DNA from: Halobellus captivus
GTDB lineage: Archaea; Halobacteriota; Halobacteria; Halobacteriales; Haloferacaceae
Direction of reading: 5' to 3'
Assembly: GCF_007655485.1 (NCBI RefSeq)
Contig: NZ_VJXQ01000004.1
Location: 205,376 to 269,375, forward strand
Length of the DNA stretch: 64,000 nucleotides
This document shows positions 24,839-49,336 of this stretch, one piece after another. The translations under genes and the position numbers were made by a program. Under the pieces are notes generated by a model. The model saw only the letters and a program-made list of their open reading frames with translations, ran no database searches and was not told the DNA's origin. Position 1 is the first letter of the stretch. Every line of letters begins with the position of its first letter.

Positions 24839-27166
24839 TCACCGAGTGACGACAACGCTGCTGAGGTGATCGCCGGGGTATCCGCCGAACAGGGTGAGGA
24901 GTTTATCGAAGGTCGATAACAACGACGTATTCGACGACGTGGTCGACGTCTCTGTAGTGCTGGCCGATGTCTCCGTGGCCGTCGTCGTTTCGGTTGTCGT
25001 TGCGGTGGTCGCTGTCGTCTCCGTCGGCGTGGCTGTCACGGTCTGAGTTGACGTGGCAGTCACGATCTGAGTCGACGTTGTCGTTTCCGTCGGAGTCGGC
25101 GTCCTCGTCTCCGTGGATGTCGAGGTCTCTGTGGGTGTGGATGTTTCCGTCACCGTCTCCGTTGGTGTGAATGTCGACGTCGCCGTCGATGTTTCCGTCG
25201 GAGTCGGCGTGGACGTCGACGTCTCCGTAGACGTGGATGGCGACGTCGCCGTTGATGTCTCCGTCGGAGTAGGCGTCTCGGTGGACGTAGACGGCTCCGT
25301 GGGAGTCGACTCCGAGACTGTCGTTGTGGTCTGCGTCGCCGTGGGGGTCGTTGCGTCAGTTGGAGCCGACGTGGGGGCAGTGGTTTCTGTGGAAGGCGAT
25401 GGCGGCGGACGCGTCTCCGCCTCAGTCGGTGCGTCCGTGGCAGTTGAATCGGGAGTCTCCGTTTCCGTCGGGGTCGACTGCGGTCCGGTGGGCGTGGGAG
25501 TCATCGTGGGCTCCTCATCACCCGGAACCGGGATGTCCATTCCGCCGACGCTCGGTCCGGCCACGGCGACGACCAGTCCGGTCACAAAGAGCAGGACACC
25601 GACGATCAAGAGCAGACCTTGGACGGTGTCAACCATATCCGCCCTCACATGGAAATCGACAGTGGTCGCTTGGGTCCGTGACGCCCATCGACCGAGTGGG
25701 TCGGGGAACGACTCGAGGACCGAGAGGAGTTCAGTACCGCCGAGGGCACCGGTCAACAGCGCGAACGACACGTAGATGAAGAGCCCAACGGGCGGGACAA
25801 TCGCGAGGGCGAGAACGTCGCTTTCGATGACCCGCGCGAGGTAAAAGATGGGGACGATAGAAAGCAGGATCGTGAGCAGCGTCCGGATCGGTCGAGCGTC
25901 CGAAAGCGGGTCGAACCCGATCCGACGCGCGCTCCACACGTGGAAAACGAACATCGACCCGTAACTGATGCTGGTCGCGACGGCCGCACCGTTCATCCCG
26001 TACCGGTTGATGAGAATCCAGTTGAGAACGAGATTGAGTCCGGCCGCAGCGCCGGTCGCCACGATCAGTGCCTTCAGGTCACCCTTCCCCTGTCCGATAG
26101 CGAGAAGCGGTCTCGCCACGGCGAACCCGAGTGCCCCCGGAAGCAGTAATAGGAGCGGGATCCGGCTGGCGATGTAGTGGTCCGGATAGATGAGTGGTAT
26201 CGCCTGTGTTGCGAGCGCCGCGAGACCGATCGCCATCAGGGCAGTGAGAAGGAGAGTGTAGCGGGTGACCCGAGCCGCGATAGAACTGATCCGCGCTTCG
26301 TTCTCGTTCGCCCAGAGGTTCGAGGTCGATTGTAACAGCACCATTTGCAACGAAATGGGGACAAACCAGAGAAACTCCGCGAGTGTGAGTGCGATCTTGT
26401 AATACTGGGTTTGATCGCGGCCAGCGAGTGGACGAAGCATCAGGATGTCAATGTGAAATAGCGACGTGAGCAACAGGACCAACAAGATACTGAATCCGTT
26501 GAACGCGAGCATCTCTCGCCGGGGGAACTCAAGGGAGGGCACTGACAGGACGGAGAGCAGCGATACCCTCCGATGAATGAGCCAGAAGCCGATGAGCGCG
26601 ACGGTGGTGCTCGCAAGGATATGACCGATGAGAACGCCGACGACACCGTATCCGAGGTACGCAAGCGAGAGACCGCTCGTCAGGAAGATCGCCTTTCCAA
26701 GCACTCTCAGCGGTTCGGATCGGGATTCCAGTCCGAATCCCATAAGCGTACGTCGGGTGTATTCTCGAAATTGAGCGGCGACGACGAGGACAGCCAATAC
26801 GTAAAAGTACGTCTCGAATCGCGCACCTGCTACGATAGGTTCAATAAACCCCAATCTCGATGCACCGGCGAGGAACGCGGCACCGAGTGCAGCCAACACG
26901 ACCGCGAGCCGAAAATAAAATCCCACAACGTTCTCTGCCCACTGCGGATCGTCGCGCTGTTCGGCGAGGAATTTCCTGACGCCGTCGGTTACGCCCGAAC
27001 TGACGAAGATCATAAAGATAGCAAAGACGGACATCAGGAACGCGTAATCGCCGTACTCGTTGTCGAGGAGGCGTGTCAGAAGCGGAGAAGACGCGATCCC
27101 GAGGAGGAGCAAGAGCACCTTCGTACCCACCAACGAGAGAAACCCGCTGGTAATACTCCGGTCCAT
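24839..27166 (-). CDS. Wzx/PST-type flippase with extra TM helix and long Thr-rich mucin-like tail
   Basis: 775 residues. Residues 1 to ~490 are a canonical polysaccharide flippase with 12 or more membrane helices (opening SGFLSLVGTKVLLLLLGIASS, then SPLLTRLLDNEYGDYAF). Such transporters move lipid-linked oligosaccharide across the membrane, as AglR is proposed to do in Haloferax. An unusual extension follows: one more helix (about 512-540), a ~200-residue tail (about 547-745) of Thr, Ser, Pro and Glu in TPTET/STSTET-type repeats, and a short non-repetitive end. Such tails are typical of O-glycosylated surface spacers, not of flippases. The frame is continuous with no sign of frameshift. Convergent with the asparagine-synthase-like gene. 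Confidence 0.9.
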   Translation of the reverse strand: MDRSITSGFLSLVGTKVLLLLLGIASSPLLTRLLDNEYGDYAFLMSVFAIFMIFVSSGVTDGVRKFLAEQRDDPQWAENVVGFYFRLAVVLAALGAAFLAGASRLGFIEPIVAGARFETYFYVLAVLVVAAQFREYTRRTLMGFGLESRSEPLRVLGKAIFLTSGLSLAYLGYGVVGVLIGHILASTTVALIGFWLIHRRVSLLSVLSVPSLEFPRREMLAFNGFSILLVLLLTSLFHIDILMLRPLAGRDQTQYYKIALTLAEFLWFVPISLQMVLLQSTSNLWANENEARISSIAARVTRYTLLLTALMAIGLAALATQAIPLIYPDHYIASRIPLLLLLPGALGFAVARPLLAIGQGKGDLKALIVATGAAAGLNLVLNWILINRYGMNGAAVATSISYGSMFVFHVWSARRIGFDPLSDARPIRTLLTILLSIVPIFYLARVIESDVLALAIVPPVGLFIYVSFALLTGALGGTELLSVLESFPDPLGRWASRTQATTVDFHVRADMVDTVQGLLLIVGVLLFVTGLVVAVAGPSVGGMDIPVPGDEEPTMTPTPTGPQSTPTETETPDSTATDAPTEAETRPPPSPSTETTAPTSAPTDATTPTATQTTTTVSESTPTEPSTSTETPTPTETSTATSPSTSTETSTSTPTPTETSTATSTFTPTETVTETSTPTETSTSTETRTPTPTETTTSTQIVTATSTQTVTATPTETTATTATTTETTTATETSASTTETSTTSSNTSLLSTFDKLLTLFGGYPGDHLSSVVVTR
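24930..25525. repeat. Degenerate tandem repeat DNA encoding the Thr-rich flippase tail
   Basis: On the plus strand this stretch is dominated by irregular copies of GTCTCCGTCGGAGT, GACGTCGA and GTTTCCGTC, giving about 200 codons for Thr, Ser, Pro and Glu when read on the minus strand. Period is 6-12 bases with many single-base differences. Copy-number change by slippage is likely between strains. Confidence 0.85.
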
Positions 27167-43824: not shown

Positions 43825-44118
43825 CTACTCGATGTGGCCTTCTTCGCGCAGCTGCTCGGCGTCCTGCTCGGAGTAACGCCACTCGATGTTGGCCTTCTCG
43901 TCCTGCCAGTCCCACGGTTCGACGAGGACCACGTCGCCCTCGTTGATCCACGTGCGGTACTTCATCCGACCCGGGATCCGTCCCATCCGATTCTTTCCGT
44001 CTGCACAGCGTACGCGAACGTGGTTGCCGCCGTTGTGTTCGACGACGACCGCGAACAGCTCATCACCGTTGGGCATCCGTAGATTCCGTCGCCCTGATTC
44101 TTCAGTCACAACCGACAT
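43825..44118 (-). CDS. eif1A: Translation initiation factor aIF-1A
   Basis: 97 residues from the ATG at 44118, the usual size. The OB-fold signatures [33 protein letters not shown] and the closing [10 protein letters not shown] identify an archaeal initiation factor 1A, which assists ribosomal subunit handling and start-site selection. An upstream extension in frame is not family-like. This single-copy housekeeping gene argues that this part of the window is chromosomal. Confidence 0.97.
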
Positions 44119-44363
44119 ATGTCGGCAGCACGGATAAATGACCGGTTCCGCGAATCGATTCACGTGGGTGGGGTTATCACGCACTGAGCGGTGAATACGC
44201 CGCGGTCGTGGTGGTCGGTGAAGAGACGATCGCCAGGTGCAGGGACGCAAAGAGGAGGATATCGGTCTCTCGCTGTACACTATCGAAAGAACTGCTGGGA
44301 TCGGTCGGTTCGAGTTCGAAACCGGGTTGTCAGACCCGGAATACGCCGAAAACCGACTTCGAC
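44119..44363. other. Intergenic segment, no gene seen
   Basis: About 245 bases between aIF-1A and the DUF7847 gene. A GGTTCGAGTTCGAAACC stretch at about 44303-44319 resembles a tRNA T-arm but no cloverleaf can be drawn around it. No coding frame is convincing. Confidence 0.6.
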
Positions 44364-45167
44364 TCAATAGACCGCGCGCGTGCCGTCGATCGCGCGGTAG
44401 AACGCGACCGAGTACGTCGCGTAGAACGCGCCCAGAACCGCGATAGCGACGATGTAGACGACGGCCGCACCGGCCAGAATCGGCATCGAGAGTTCCGGGA
44501 GCGGCAGGGCAGTCGGTTGCGGCGACAGCAGTATCGAGGCCACGCCGCCGACACCGCCGAAGACGACACTGCCGACGAGGAGGAGTGCTGAGTAGCCAAG
44601 CACGCTGAGGGGGTTCCGACGAACGAGTCCGAGGCTTCGTTTGAACCCGTCGACGACGTCAGTGTCGCTCAGGACGATCGCGTGCCCGTAGAACTGGATG
44701 AAAAAGGCGATCAGAAGGTACGCGAGGACGAACAGAAGTCCGATACCCACGAATACGATGAGCCCGAGGCGGTTGGATTGACCGCCGAGCGCGAACAGTC
44801 CAGCGCCGCCAAACAGGGCGACGAAGAACGAGACGAACCCGAGGGCGAGGTTGACCGCGAAGACGGCGAGATACGCGATGAGGAGGCTGACGTAATTCGC
44901 TTTGCCGTCGGCGAGCAGGGTATCGACGCTCGTCTCCCCGTCGAGCGCCTCGTCGGCCATACCGAGGAGGCCGCCCTGGAAGAACGGCACTACGATGATC
45001 ATCACGCCAGTGATCGCCAGCGAGACGAGCGCCGCGAGCAGCGGTTGCGACGATTGCAGCGCCAGTTGCGGCAGTTGAACCACACCGAAGAGACCGACGA
45101 TGGCGATAAGTATCGGATTCCGGATCAGTGCACCGACGGCTGGACGGAGGGACTTCAGGGCAGCCAT
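44364..45167 (-). CDS. DUF7847-like polytopic membrane protein
   Basis: 267 residues from the ATG at 45167. About six membrane helices with Gly/Ala-rich, charge-poor segments and a conserved [19 protein letters not shown] motif on the cytoplasmic side. This is the pattern of the haloarchaeal DUF7847/glycerophosphoryl-diester-phosphodiesterase membrane-domain family. It is a membrane scaffold or transporter-like protein of unknown function. Confidence 0.8.
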
Positions 45168-45413: not shown

Positions 45414-45469
45414 AGGTCAATAATGTTATATGTTCGTGCAATCAAGTGGTAATCAGAGGACGAACAACG

Positions 45470-45904
45470 ATGAACATCAAACAACTATTCACGGAAGAGC
45501 GTGCTGTCAGCCCGGTTATCGGCGTCATTCTAATGGTAGCGATCACGGTCATTCTCGCGGCCGTTATCGGTGCGTTCGTGCTGAATCTCGGTCAGGGGAT
45601 CGGCCAGTCGGCCCCGCAGGCGACGTTCGAGATCAACTCGACGAATCTCGATTCGAACCAGAATGCGACGATTACGCACTCAGCTGGTGATTCCATTGAG
45701 AAGACGAATCTGTACGTGAACGGAGATATCGTTCAAGATGGAGCACAAGTAGATAACCTTTTGAACACCATCAACGGCGATACGGTAAGCTCTGGCGAGA
45801 GTTTCGAGGTGGAGACCAACGCGGATAACGGAACGATCCGCGTCACCTGGCAAGCCGAGGACGGCAGCAGTTCCTCGACGCTCCGGACGTTCGAGTACCA
45901 ATAA
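45470..45904 (+). CDS. Archaeal type IV pilin (PilA-like)
   Basis: 144 residues. After the processing site region comes the invariant Pilin_N H-domain RAVSPVIGVILMVAITV (residues 12-28) extended by ILAAVIGAFVLNLG, then a Thr/Ser/Asn-rich globular domain with several N-x-S/T sequons. A prepilin peptidase (PibD) would cut just before the hydrophobic helix, and pilins assemble into adhesive filaments whose H-domain also regulates motility in Haloferax. The ATG at 45470 gives the family-typical start MNIKQLFTEE. Confidence 0.95.
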   Translation: MNIKQLFTEERAVSPVIGVILMVAITVILAAVIGAFVLNLGQGIGQSAPQATFEINSTNLDSNQNATITHSAGDSIEKTNLYVNGDIVQDGAQVDNLLNTINGDTVSSGESFEVETNADNGTIRVTWQAEDGSSSSTLRTFEYQ

Positions 45905-47624: not shown

Positions 47625-48065
47625 CGTTTCACGGAGCCAGGGCGACTCCAGCGGCAGAACGACCCCCGAAGCGAAGAAAGTATGGGTCGATATCGTCGGC
47701 TACCGCCGGAACCGTGCTTCTAGAATGGAACCCAGTACACGGATTCAGGACTGCCATTCCCGGCTGAATGTGTGGAAATTCATCGACGTCAGCATATAGA
47801 CAGCCCACAGGGAGACAGTAAGAAAGTCCACTTATGCCACACAGTCATTCACCGAACTCATTAGTATTGTTCATTAGTTGTGTTCATTACATTCAATCAG
47901 GAACACCGTTAATGGATGGTATTCATTAATAGGCTTAAAGGAAAACAGTACAGAGTTGTTTCAATGAAGATCACGAATTTATGGTGTTCGATATGAAACA
48001 TCATTCATCGAATTCCGGAATGCGTCTGGAGAACATTCAAGGTGAAGCCAATCGTTGGGCCGGTA
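47625..48065. other. Intergenic region carrying the iteron array and parA promoter
   Basis: About 440 bases, AT-rich relative to neighbours, with no convincing gene. It contains the 13-bp-periodic repeats at 47845-47935 and presumably the divergent promoters of AIM24 and parA. Confidence 0.6.
47845..47935. repeat. 13-bp-periodic iteron array (TCATTA units) upstream of parA
   Basis: Units beginning TCATT start at 47845 (TCATTCACCGAAC), 47858 (TCATTAGTATTGT), 47871 (TCATTAGTTGTGT), 47884 (TCATTACATTCAA) and 47923 (TCATTAATAGGCT), all separated by exact multiples of 13. The two registers between (47897 TCAGGAACACCGT and 47910 TAATGGATGGTAT) keep the spacing but have diverged. A further TCATTC at 48001 is also in phase. 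Regular short direct repeats ahead of a ParA gene resemble centromere/operator sites of partition operons. Confidence 0.75.
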
Positions 48066-48941
48066 ATGCTCGCATACTCGACGTACAGTGAGGCAGGTGG
48101 GGTCGGAAAAACCACCACCGCGGCGAATCTCGCGGTGGCGCACGCACGGGCCGGACTCAAGCCCCTCGTCGTCCCGCTTGATCCGCAGGACGGGGACCTC
48201 TCACGGCTGTTCGGCGTGGACAACCGACGGACCGAATCCGTGGACAACATCGTCCGGCATATGATCCGTCGACCCAAGGGCGAGTTCGACGCGCTCGTGC
48301 GGACGGTCGAGGGCGTCGACATTATCCCGGAGCACAACATGCTCTCCGATCTCGCGGAGTACCTGCAGCGAGAGAAGGAGCAATCGGAAGCGATGGGCGA
48401 AGCCTTCGGCGTCCACGCACAACTCCTCCGCGTTCTCAGAGAAGCGGGAGTGCCGGACAACTACGATGTGCTCATCTGTGACCCTCCAGCAACGGAAGGG
48501 CCGCACCTCTACAACGCGATCAACGCGACGCGATCGCTCGTGATTCCCGTTGAACCGAGTGCAAAGGGACAGGCGGCCGTCGAAGGGTTAGAGGAACTCG
48601 TCTCTGGCTTCGAGGAACAACTCGACGTGAAAGTCGGTGTCCTCGCCGCGATTCCGATGGGATTCAAAAATACCCGCGATCAGCGAGAGATCCTCGACGG
48701 GATCAACTACCCGGTCCCAGAAATCATCGGCGAGCGGGCGTCGTTGATGGAGGGATGCTGGATGCAGCAGTGCTCGGCGTTCGCGTACGTTCGCGAGCAT
48801 CGAGAGCGCCGACGTGACTACGAGCTGGAGACGCTCGCGCAGTTCGACCGACTCGCAAGGCATTTAGAAAAAGAGGTGGCACTGGAGGCGCCGAATCCAC
48901 CGGCGCCGGGGGACGTCGACCACGAGGTGATGACCGCATGA
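48066..48941 (+). CDS. ParA/MinD-superfamily ATPase
   Basis: 291 residues from the ATG at 48066 (48042 is an in-frame alternative). The Walker A region reads YSEAGGVGKTTTAANLA: the P-loop lysine (Lys15) is present but the deviant-Walker 'signature' lysine is replaced by Ala (Ala10). Walker A' is LVVPLDPQDGDLS and Walker B is DVLICDPPATEG. The protein lacks an N-terminal HTH, as in type Ib ParA. Its stop overlaps the next start in an ATGA junction. A role in segregation or positioning of DNA or a large complex is inferred. Confidence 0.92.
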   Translation: MLAYSTYSEAGGVGKTTTAANLAVAHARAGLKPLVVPLDPQDGDLSRLFGVDNRRTESVDNIVRHMIRRPKGEFDALVRTVEGVDIIPEHNMLSDLAEYLQREKEQSEAMGEAFGVHAQLLRVLREAGVPDNYDVLICDPPATEGPHLYNAINATRSLVIPVEPSAKGQAAVEGLEELVSGFEEQLDVKVGVLAAIPMGFKNTRDQREILDGINYPVPEIIGERASLMEGCWMQQCSAFAYVREHRERRRDYELETLAQFDRLARHLEKEVALEAPNPPAPGDVDHEVMTA

Positions 48942-49336
48942 CTGGAATGAAACAGGGAGCCGGCGAGAACCCGTTCGCGGACGATACGCCGTCCGAGGAC
49001 GACGGAGGCACCGACGAGATTCCGGAGGCCGGAAGCGAACGCGAGGAATCTACCGAACCCGATGGTAAGAACGAATCCACCGGGCGAGAACCGATGCAGA
49101 TTCCGTACAAATTCAGACGCGACGGCGTGCAGGACGGCCGTAATCGGGTCCCGCTCTTTCTGCAACCCGAAACGAAGACCGCGGAACGGGAGACGCTTCG
49201 GGATCTGGAAGACACCTTCGGCGACAGCGTCTCGCTCACGGATCTCAGAGAGGCGCTCGTTCTGGTCGGCCTCGAACACACGAACGAGGTCGAAGAACAA
49301 CTGGAGGAGTGGGGATACGGGATGACGTTCGAGTGA
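48938..49336 (+). CDS. Small ParA-partner protein (DUF8160-like)
   Basis: 132 residues. The first ~50 are acidic and disordered (Asp, Glu, Gly, Ser). The last ~80 form a compact domain: MQIPYKFRRDGVQDGR, VPLFLQPETKTAERE, then helices to the C-terminus. Four-base overlap with parA implies coupled synthesis. By position it is the candidate centromere-binding or adaptor protein; no standard DNA-binding motif is visible apart from the basic KFRRDG segment. The DUF number is from memory. Confidence 0.8.
   Translation: MTGMKQGAGENPFADDTPSEDDGGTDEIPEAGSEREESTEPDGKNESTGREPMQIPYKFRRDGVQDGRNRVPLFLQPETKTAERETLRDLEDTFGDSVSLTDLREALVLVGLEHTNEVEEQLEEWGYGMTFE

Follow-up and report, generated by a model that had tools for sequence, protein, structure and literature searches.

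A ParA-type ATPase that lacks the signature lysine of its Walker A motif, follows an array of short repeats and overlaps the gene for a small acidic protein raises the question of what such a cassette moves, and by what means. The cassette lies in a stretch of 64,000 nucleotides of Halobellus captivus (G000:C16:205376-269375), here called the window. The genome is in 21 contigs, of which C16 has 290,931 bp. A reading of the letters alone had likened the cassette to a type Ib partition operon. The comparisons described below lead us to regard the locus, with considerable confidence, as a plasmid partition system of type Ib-like layout, in which the lysine is of the McdA type and the centromeres are diversified and sometimes multi-site.

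The ATPase matches Pfam AAA_31 (1.3e-19, above the gathering cut-off) and the ParA-like partition proteins of PHROG 164 (1.3e-26). Its AF2 single-chain model has a pLDDT of 93 and matches ParA/Soj with a Z of 28-29 over about 240 residues. The protein has no N-terminal HTH extension; residues 1-272 span the Soj fold from its start. Translation is likely to begin at the ATG rather than at the upstream GTG (Table 1), because related proteins begin at that point. The ATGA overlap with a small acidic partner gene, proposed in the sequence-only reading, is borne out: the ParA gene runs to 48941, and that of the partner begins at 48938.

Table 1. Features of the partition cassette (positions in the window).
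Feature	Position	Strand	Basis	Remarks
13-bp iteron array, TTCATTAGTTGTG type	47845..47928	+	Register, Tandem Repeats Finder, lag test	7 positions; proposed candidate parA-proximal centromere/operator
Degenerate TGTCTGACG copy and TATA-like stretch	48024..48044	+		Some 43 nt upstream of the ParA ATG; 3 mismatches here; probable core promoter
ParA-type ATPase, 291 aa	48066..48941	+	Pfam, PHROG, AF2 model	Alternative start GTG 48042
Walker A, SEAGGVGKTT	48087..48116	+	Family alignment	Ala at residue 10, the signature-lysine position
K167 codon in IPVEPSAKG	48564..48566	+	Family and McdA alignment	Proposed relocated signature lysine
Partner, 132 aa, translationally coupled to ParA	48938..49336	+	Conserved downstream gene	Candidate centromere-binding protein
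Partner C-terminal extended strand and helices	49136..49309	+	AF2 and structural matches	Ribbon-helix-helix-like

The partner encoded here consists of an N-terminal MTGMKxGAGENPFADD, an acidic linker and a C-terminal DNA-binding-like domain. Throughout the family a conserved N-terminal MxGMKxGxGxDPFADD precedes an acidic linker of variable sequence and a conserved C-terminal domain, and in nearly all loci the gene follows that of ParA, overlapping it or tightly joined to it. The partner had no match in Pfam, its sequence found nothing relevant in the PDB, and its model gave no significant match with Foldseek alone. The AF2 single-chain model, with a pLDDT of about 83-98 over residues 67-124, has an extended segment followed by helices at residues 77-94, 100-113 and 115-124. 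Among the few candidates compared, the best structural match was the TraM N-domain (Z 5.0, 51/53 residues, 2.6 Å), followed more weakly by MazE (Z 3.3), a TCP domain (3.0) and NikA (2.5), all of which we take to be ribbon-helix-helix (RHH) or RHH-like folds. Since a Z of 5 is modest, an RHH fold for the partner is considered likely but not proven.

Upstream of ParA, 13-bp copies begin at 47845, 47858, 47871, 47884, 47897, 47910 and 47923, an exact 13-base register. Five of the seven are good matches to TCATT; those at 47897 and 47910 are degenerate. Period 13 was also recovered independently by Tandem Repeats Finder at 47858-47889. In the 300 bp upstream of ParA, 13 was the best lag, with 31/52 matches in the best window, a value attained in 0 of 100 shuffles (maximum over all lags, 24.2 +/- 1.6). 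The coordinates and the lag test agree with the seven-position register of the sequence-only reading. Chance periodicity was ruled out by these shuffles and by the flat control windows described next.

Matches to ParA (E <= 1e-20) were present in 120 of 194 sampled genomes of Halobacteria, and about 110 ParA loci were retrieved and compared. In 148 genomes sampled from the phylum, no member of the lysine-less ParA family was found beyond Halobacteriales at E <= 1e-30. Of 109 related loci, 107 had 13 or 26 as the leading lag within the 300 bp before ParA. Neither the control windows placed 700-1000 bp upstream nor those inside parA or downstream of the partner had a preference for these lags; lag 13 was slightly raised in the downstream control (13/109 loci), which would fit occasional second arrays there. 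Relatives lacking a 13-bp periodicity would have spoken against the earlier interpretation; instead, the order of the genes, their coupling and the upstream array proved to be conserved across the class, which supports the type Ib-like partition reading well.

The repeats themselves vary by subgroup. Some are of the types TTCATTAGTTGTG, TTGAACCAGTTGA and TCTTAGATAAGTG, and others resemble GTTTGCAAACAAT, TATAGCTA, AGTCTAACTA, CAGTATTACTG and ATCTGTTACAGAT. Where partners are more than 50% identical, repeat similarity is 0.72-0.78; where they are less than 50% identical it is 0.36-0.41, equal to chance (null 0.38). Repeat similarity correlates with partner identity (Mantel r 0.41) and with ParA identity (0.27), values to which phylogenetic relatedness, left in, contributes. 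From the survey of periods and from these correlations it follows that the 13-bp step is fixed and that the repeat sequence changes with the partner.

Two more divergent ParAs in this genome, on C17 and C2 (L111 and L112), have altered P-loops, SGGTYKT and SGGQSKS, and still retain 13-bp arrays, the repeat being a different one in each. Three sequences of 47-54 kb filed as viral in IMG/VR (L225, L226 and L227) carry the same ParA and partner with 13-bp arrays of the TCTTAGAT type; they may be plasmid-like viruses or plasmids. Some family members are on chromosome-sized contigs, and therefore not every copy need serve a plasmid. On chromosomal contigs of G022 and G019, two genomes related to each other, a paralogous lysine-less ParA (SESGGVGKTT; L188 and L189) has the replacement lysine and a partner, and its upstream period is 12 (lags 12 and 24) instead of 13, clearly so in L189 only.

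The ParAs of Halobacteria that keep the P-loop lysine (LLKGGVGKS type) form what we regard as a second partition type. These KGG-type loci (C19 and C21 here; L195-L224) share with the lysine-less family the host class, an upstream array and a small downstream gene. They differ in the retained P-loop lysine, in having no PSxKG insert and in the step of the array, which is 9 bp rather than 13: lags 9, 18 or 27 were among the leaders in most of 32 loci, several of them near-identical copies. One variant (among L195-L224, L113 and L114) is 98-100% identical across distant genera, which suggests recent plasmid transfer.

The contents of the contig bear on the kind of replicon that is served. ParA is 84-92% identical to plasmid ParAs of Halobellus, Halobacterium, Haloferax, Haloquadratum and others. 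Its best relative is on a 398-kb circular plasmid of Halobellus limi, which also has the adjacent AIM24 gene and parts of the surrounding stretch. An Orc1/Cdc6 gene is located near the end of C16, and C2, C16, C17, C19 and C21 each pair a single ParA of this broad kind with a single Orc1/Cdc6. No 16S rRNA gene was found on C16; it is located on C12. Because of the plasmid relatives, the Orc1/Cdc6 gene of its own and the lack of 16S rRNA on C16, we conclude from the sequence that the replicon bearing the cassette is a megaplasmid or a secondary chromosome. An ordinary chromosomal location was ruled out by the contig evidence and the plasmid relatives. The suggestion that the cassette lies among chromosomal-looking genes such as aIF-1A is not upheld: the aIF-1A gene of C16 is a second copy, with another on C15, and relatives of it are present on several Haloferax plasmids.

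Some other genes of this replicon may be recorded here. The aIF-1A copy (window 43825-44367) is unusual plasmid cargo, as is a full-length aCPSF1 beta-CASP ribonuclease encoded at about 283-285 kb of C16 (L110:3352-5268). A pilin-like gene is found close to the partition cassette (window 45446-45904). At 25017-25302 of the window, dense repeats of 6, 18, 24 and 66 bp encode the Thr/Ser/Pro-rich tail of a predicted membrane protein.

Arrays like that of the cassette also occur at a distance from parA. A scan of C16, in which 347 bases were unread, gave only two foci, the one by parA at 253.2 kb and another at 102.8 kb. On the H. limi plasmid, arrays lie beside parA at 215.5-215.7 kb, and a single distal one lies at 324.5 kb. 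No focus was obtained when the sequence of C16 or of the H. limi plasmid was reversed. The array pattern was present in 28 of 28 genomes, with a single match in the reversed-pattern control, and in genomes of few contigs all matches were on the parA-bearing replicon. With the pattern used, many loci had no distal array. For a second repeat type, some genomes likewise had matches at sites other than parA, though the controls were weaker.

These extra arrays are probably additional centromere sites. They might instead be remnants of plasmid fusions or promoter elements of neighbouring genes such as proC, and we regard this as a serious possibility, somewhat short of an even one. Haloarchaeal replicons often fuse and rearrange, and the distal array stands at the same place beside proC in three related replicons: on C16 directly upstream of proC, followed by proB and proA; on the H. 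limi plasmid separated from proCBA by a single HEAT-repeat gene; and in G095, where an array on another contig adjoins proC. Against remnants or promoters, neither of the two distal arrays inspected (C16 and H. limi) has a second parA or partner gene beside it, the distal arrays keep register and consensus, and in other genera further positions far from parA are beside unrelated genes.

The missing Walker A lysine had also been pointed out in the sequence-only reading, as an oddity of this protein. The absence holds (SEAGGVGKTT), but it is no local oddity. At the signature-lysine position 66 family ParAs have Ala and 9 have Ser, that is, all 75 members lack the P-loop lysine of the KGGxxGK feature. 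A local mutation of the lysine or a pseudogene was ruled out by the fixation of this state across the family. In 74 of the 75, residue 167 is Lys, the sole exception having an adjacent Arg, and the three-residue insert that bears it (PSxKG) is missing in 20/20 KGG-type haloarchaeal ParAs. In a profile of the region, IPVEPSAKG was aligned with IPAEASTKG of Cyanothece McdA (6non, 6noo and 6nop). K167 falls exactly on the McdA lysine at index 171, which is residue 151 after subtraction of a 20-residue tag, an offset backed by the numbering of the structure entries. In the McdA-ATP structure of Schumacher et al. from 2019, the sandwich dimer is reportedly enabled by a lysine distant from the P-loop. 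Type 1 McdA has no P-loop lysine (PMC8262871, PMC6328274). The signature lysine of the haloarchaeal family has probably been relocated from the P-loop to K167.

A non-dimerising or otherwise distinct ATPase cycle, in which K167 would have some other role, for instance in binding DNA or contacting the partner, appears unlikely. Cyanobacterial McdA, itself without the P-loop lysine, shows that the cycle can differ, with an ATPase rate more than 200-fold above those of classical ParAs (PMC6328274). In the haloarchaeal ParAs compared, K167 and the P-loop lysine replace each other reciprocally; this exchange and the alignment of K167 with McdA K151 speak instead for relocation.

Between the array and ParA there is a further conserved element. 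TGTCTGACG, with no more than one mismatch, was found in 51 of 110 family loci at a fixed distance of about 43 nt before ParA, compared with about 1.6% of shuffles, and is followed by a TATA-like stretch. Its occurrence is independent of repeat type, being common to subgroups with different repeats (L007-L128), and it is likely to be a promoter or a host-factor site; the degenerate copy in the window occupies 48024-48032. Together with the TATA-like stretch it would fit a leaderless transcript from the ParA ATG. The position of the array directly upstream of this promoter-like element would suit an array that is solely an autoregulatory operator of the parA operon, with the partner as repressor and the true centromere elsewhere or nonexistent. 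Small bacterial RHH partition proteins also repress their own operon. We nevertheless think an operator-only role improbable: matching arrays are present elsewhere on the replicon, at a great distance from parA, the repeat type tracks the partner over the whole class, and in type Ib systems the operator and centromere roles are not exclusive. A further reading, raised from the letters alone, is that the cassette serves to position part of the chromosome or another, non-DNA cargo, in the manner of McdA with carboxysomes. Such a role would accord with the McdA-type lysine motif, with the relatives on chromosome-sized contigs and with the chromosomal paralogue found in two genomes, which also has a partner but an upstream period of 12 bp instead of 13. 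It is very improbable given that DNA repeats accompany the partner at almost every locus, that close relatives are mainly on plasmids and that five contigs of this genome pair one ParA with one Orc1/Cdc6.

For the type Ib-like partition system, we infer the following cycle of binding, dimerisation and movement. The partner, probably as an RHH dimer, would bind the 13-bp repeats and build a partition complex on the array, the step of 13 bp probably being set by the packing of partner dimers along the DNA. With ATP, ParA would form a sandwich dimer able to bind the DNA of the nucleoid, and its trans-acting lysine would come from K167 in the PSxKG insert instead of the P-loop, as in McdA. The conserved N-terminal KxGxGxDPF tail of the partner would contact and stimulate ParA, driving its release from the nucleoid and thereby directed movement. 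As ParA repeatedly binds and then, stimulated by the partner, hydrolyses its ATP, the copies of the replicon would be separated by a diffusion ratchet. The repeat sequence would act as an identity tag of the replicon, diversified together with the partner, and the distal arrays would probably function as further centromere sites on it.

A 2016 review of archaeal segregation left open how halophilic archaea segregate chromosomes along with megaplasmids and what an archaeal centromere looks like (PMC5120986). Each locus of the family offers a predicted centromere, a partner and an ATPase, which makes the question of segregation directly testable in model organisms, among them Haloferax mediterranei and Halobacterium salinarum, and the arrays are testable candidates for haloarchaeal plasmid centromeres. 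If the exchange of the P-loop lysine for PSxKG is true, it is a second McdA-type solution, here in DNA partition. The 13-bp and 9-bp ParA types suggest a simple scheme for typing plasmid compatibility. More tentatively, and with rather more doubt than assurance, the family might be a distinct haloarchaeal partition class, defined by a relocated lysine of McdA type, a centromere specified by its 13-bp step and not its sequence, repeats and partners that coevolve into incompatibility types, and several centromere arrays on a single replicon that may be tethered to one another. No prior description of the lysine-less haloarchaeal ParA group or of its repeats was found in the open-access literature that was searched.

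Among known systems, the haloarchaeal locus resembles type Ib ParABS (TP228 ParFG and pSM19035 delta-omega) in a ParA without an N-terminal HTH, a small downstream candidate centromere-binding partner, probably RHH, and an upstream repeat array. It differs in the missing P-loop signature lysine, the 13-bp step, the long acidic linker of a partner whose sequence has no relevant match among solved structures, and the extra arrays far off on the replicon. With McdA/McdB (beta-McdAB type 1) it shares a ParA-family ATPase without the P-loop lysine and, at the corresponding point of the chain, a lysine in an equivalent IPxExSxKG motif. The neighbouring gene here encodes a putative DNA-binding protein and is accompanied by a DNA repeat array, and in this gene context the two differ. 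Nor are haloarchaea known to have carboxysomes. The pNOB8 ParA-AspA-ParB and SegAB systems have the ParA fold (5k5z, Z 22.1; 7dut, Z 23.2) and a role in archaeal partition in common with it; their partner proteins and gene order are different, and they are known from Sulfolobales. Prophage N15 has a multi-site plasmid centromere, its sites dispersed on one replicon and bound by a ParB-type protein. Some haloarchaeal replicons likewise appear to have more than one candidate partition site spread over a single replicon; unlike those of N15, these would consist of direct repeats of 13 bp and be bound by a partner that is probably RHH. As judged by these comparisons, the system does not seem categorically new; what appears new is the lysine of McdA type, a step held at 13 bp while the repeat sequence changes, and the distal arrays.
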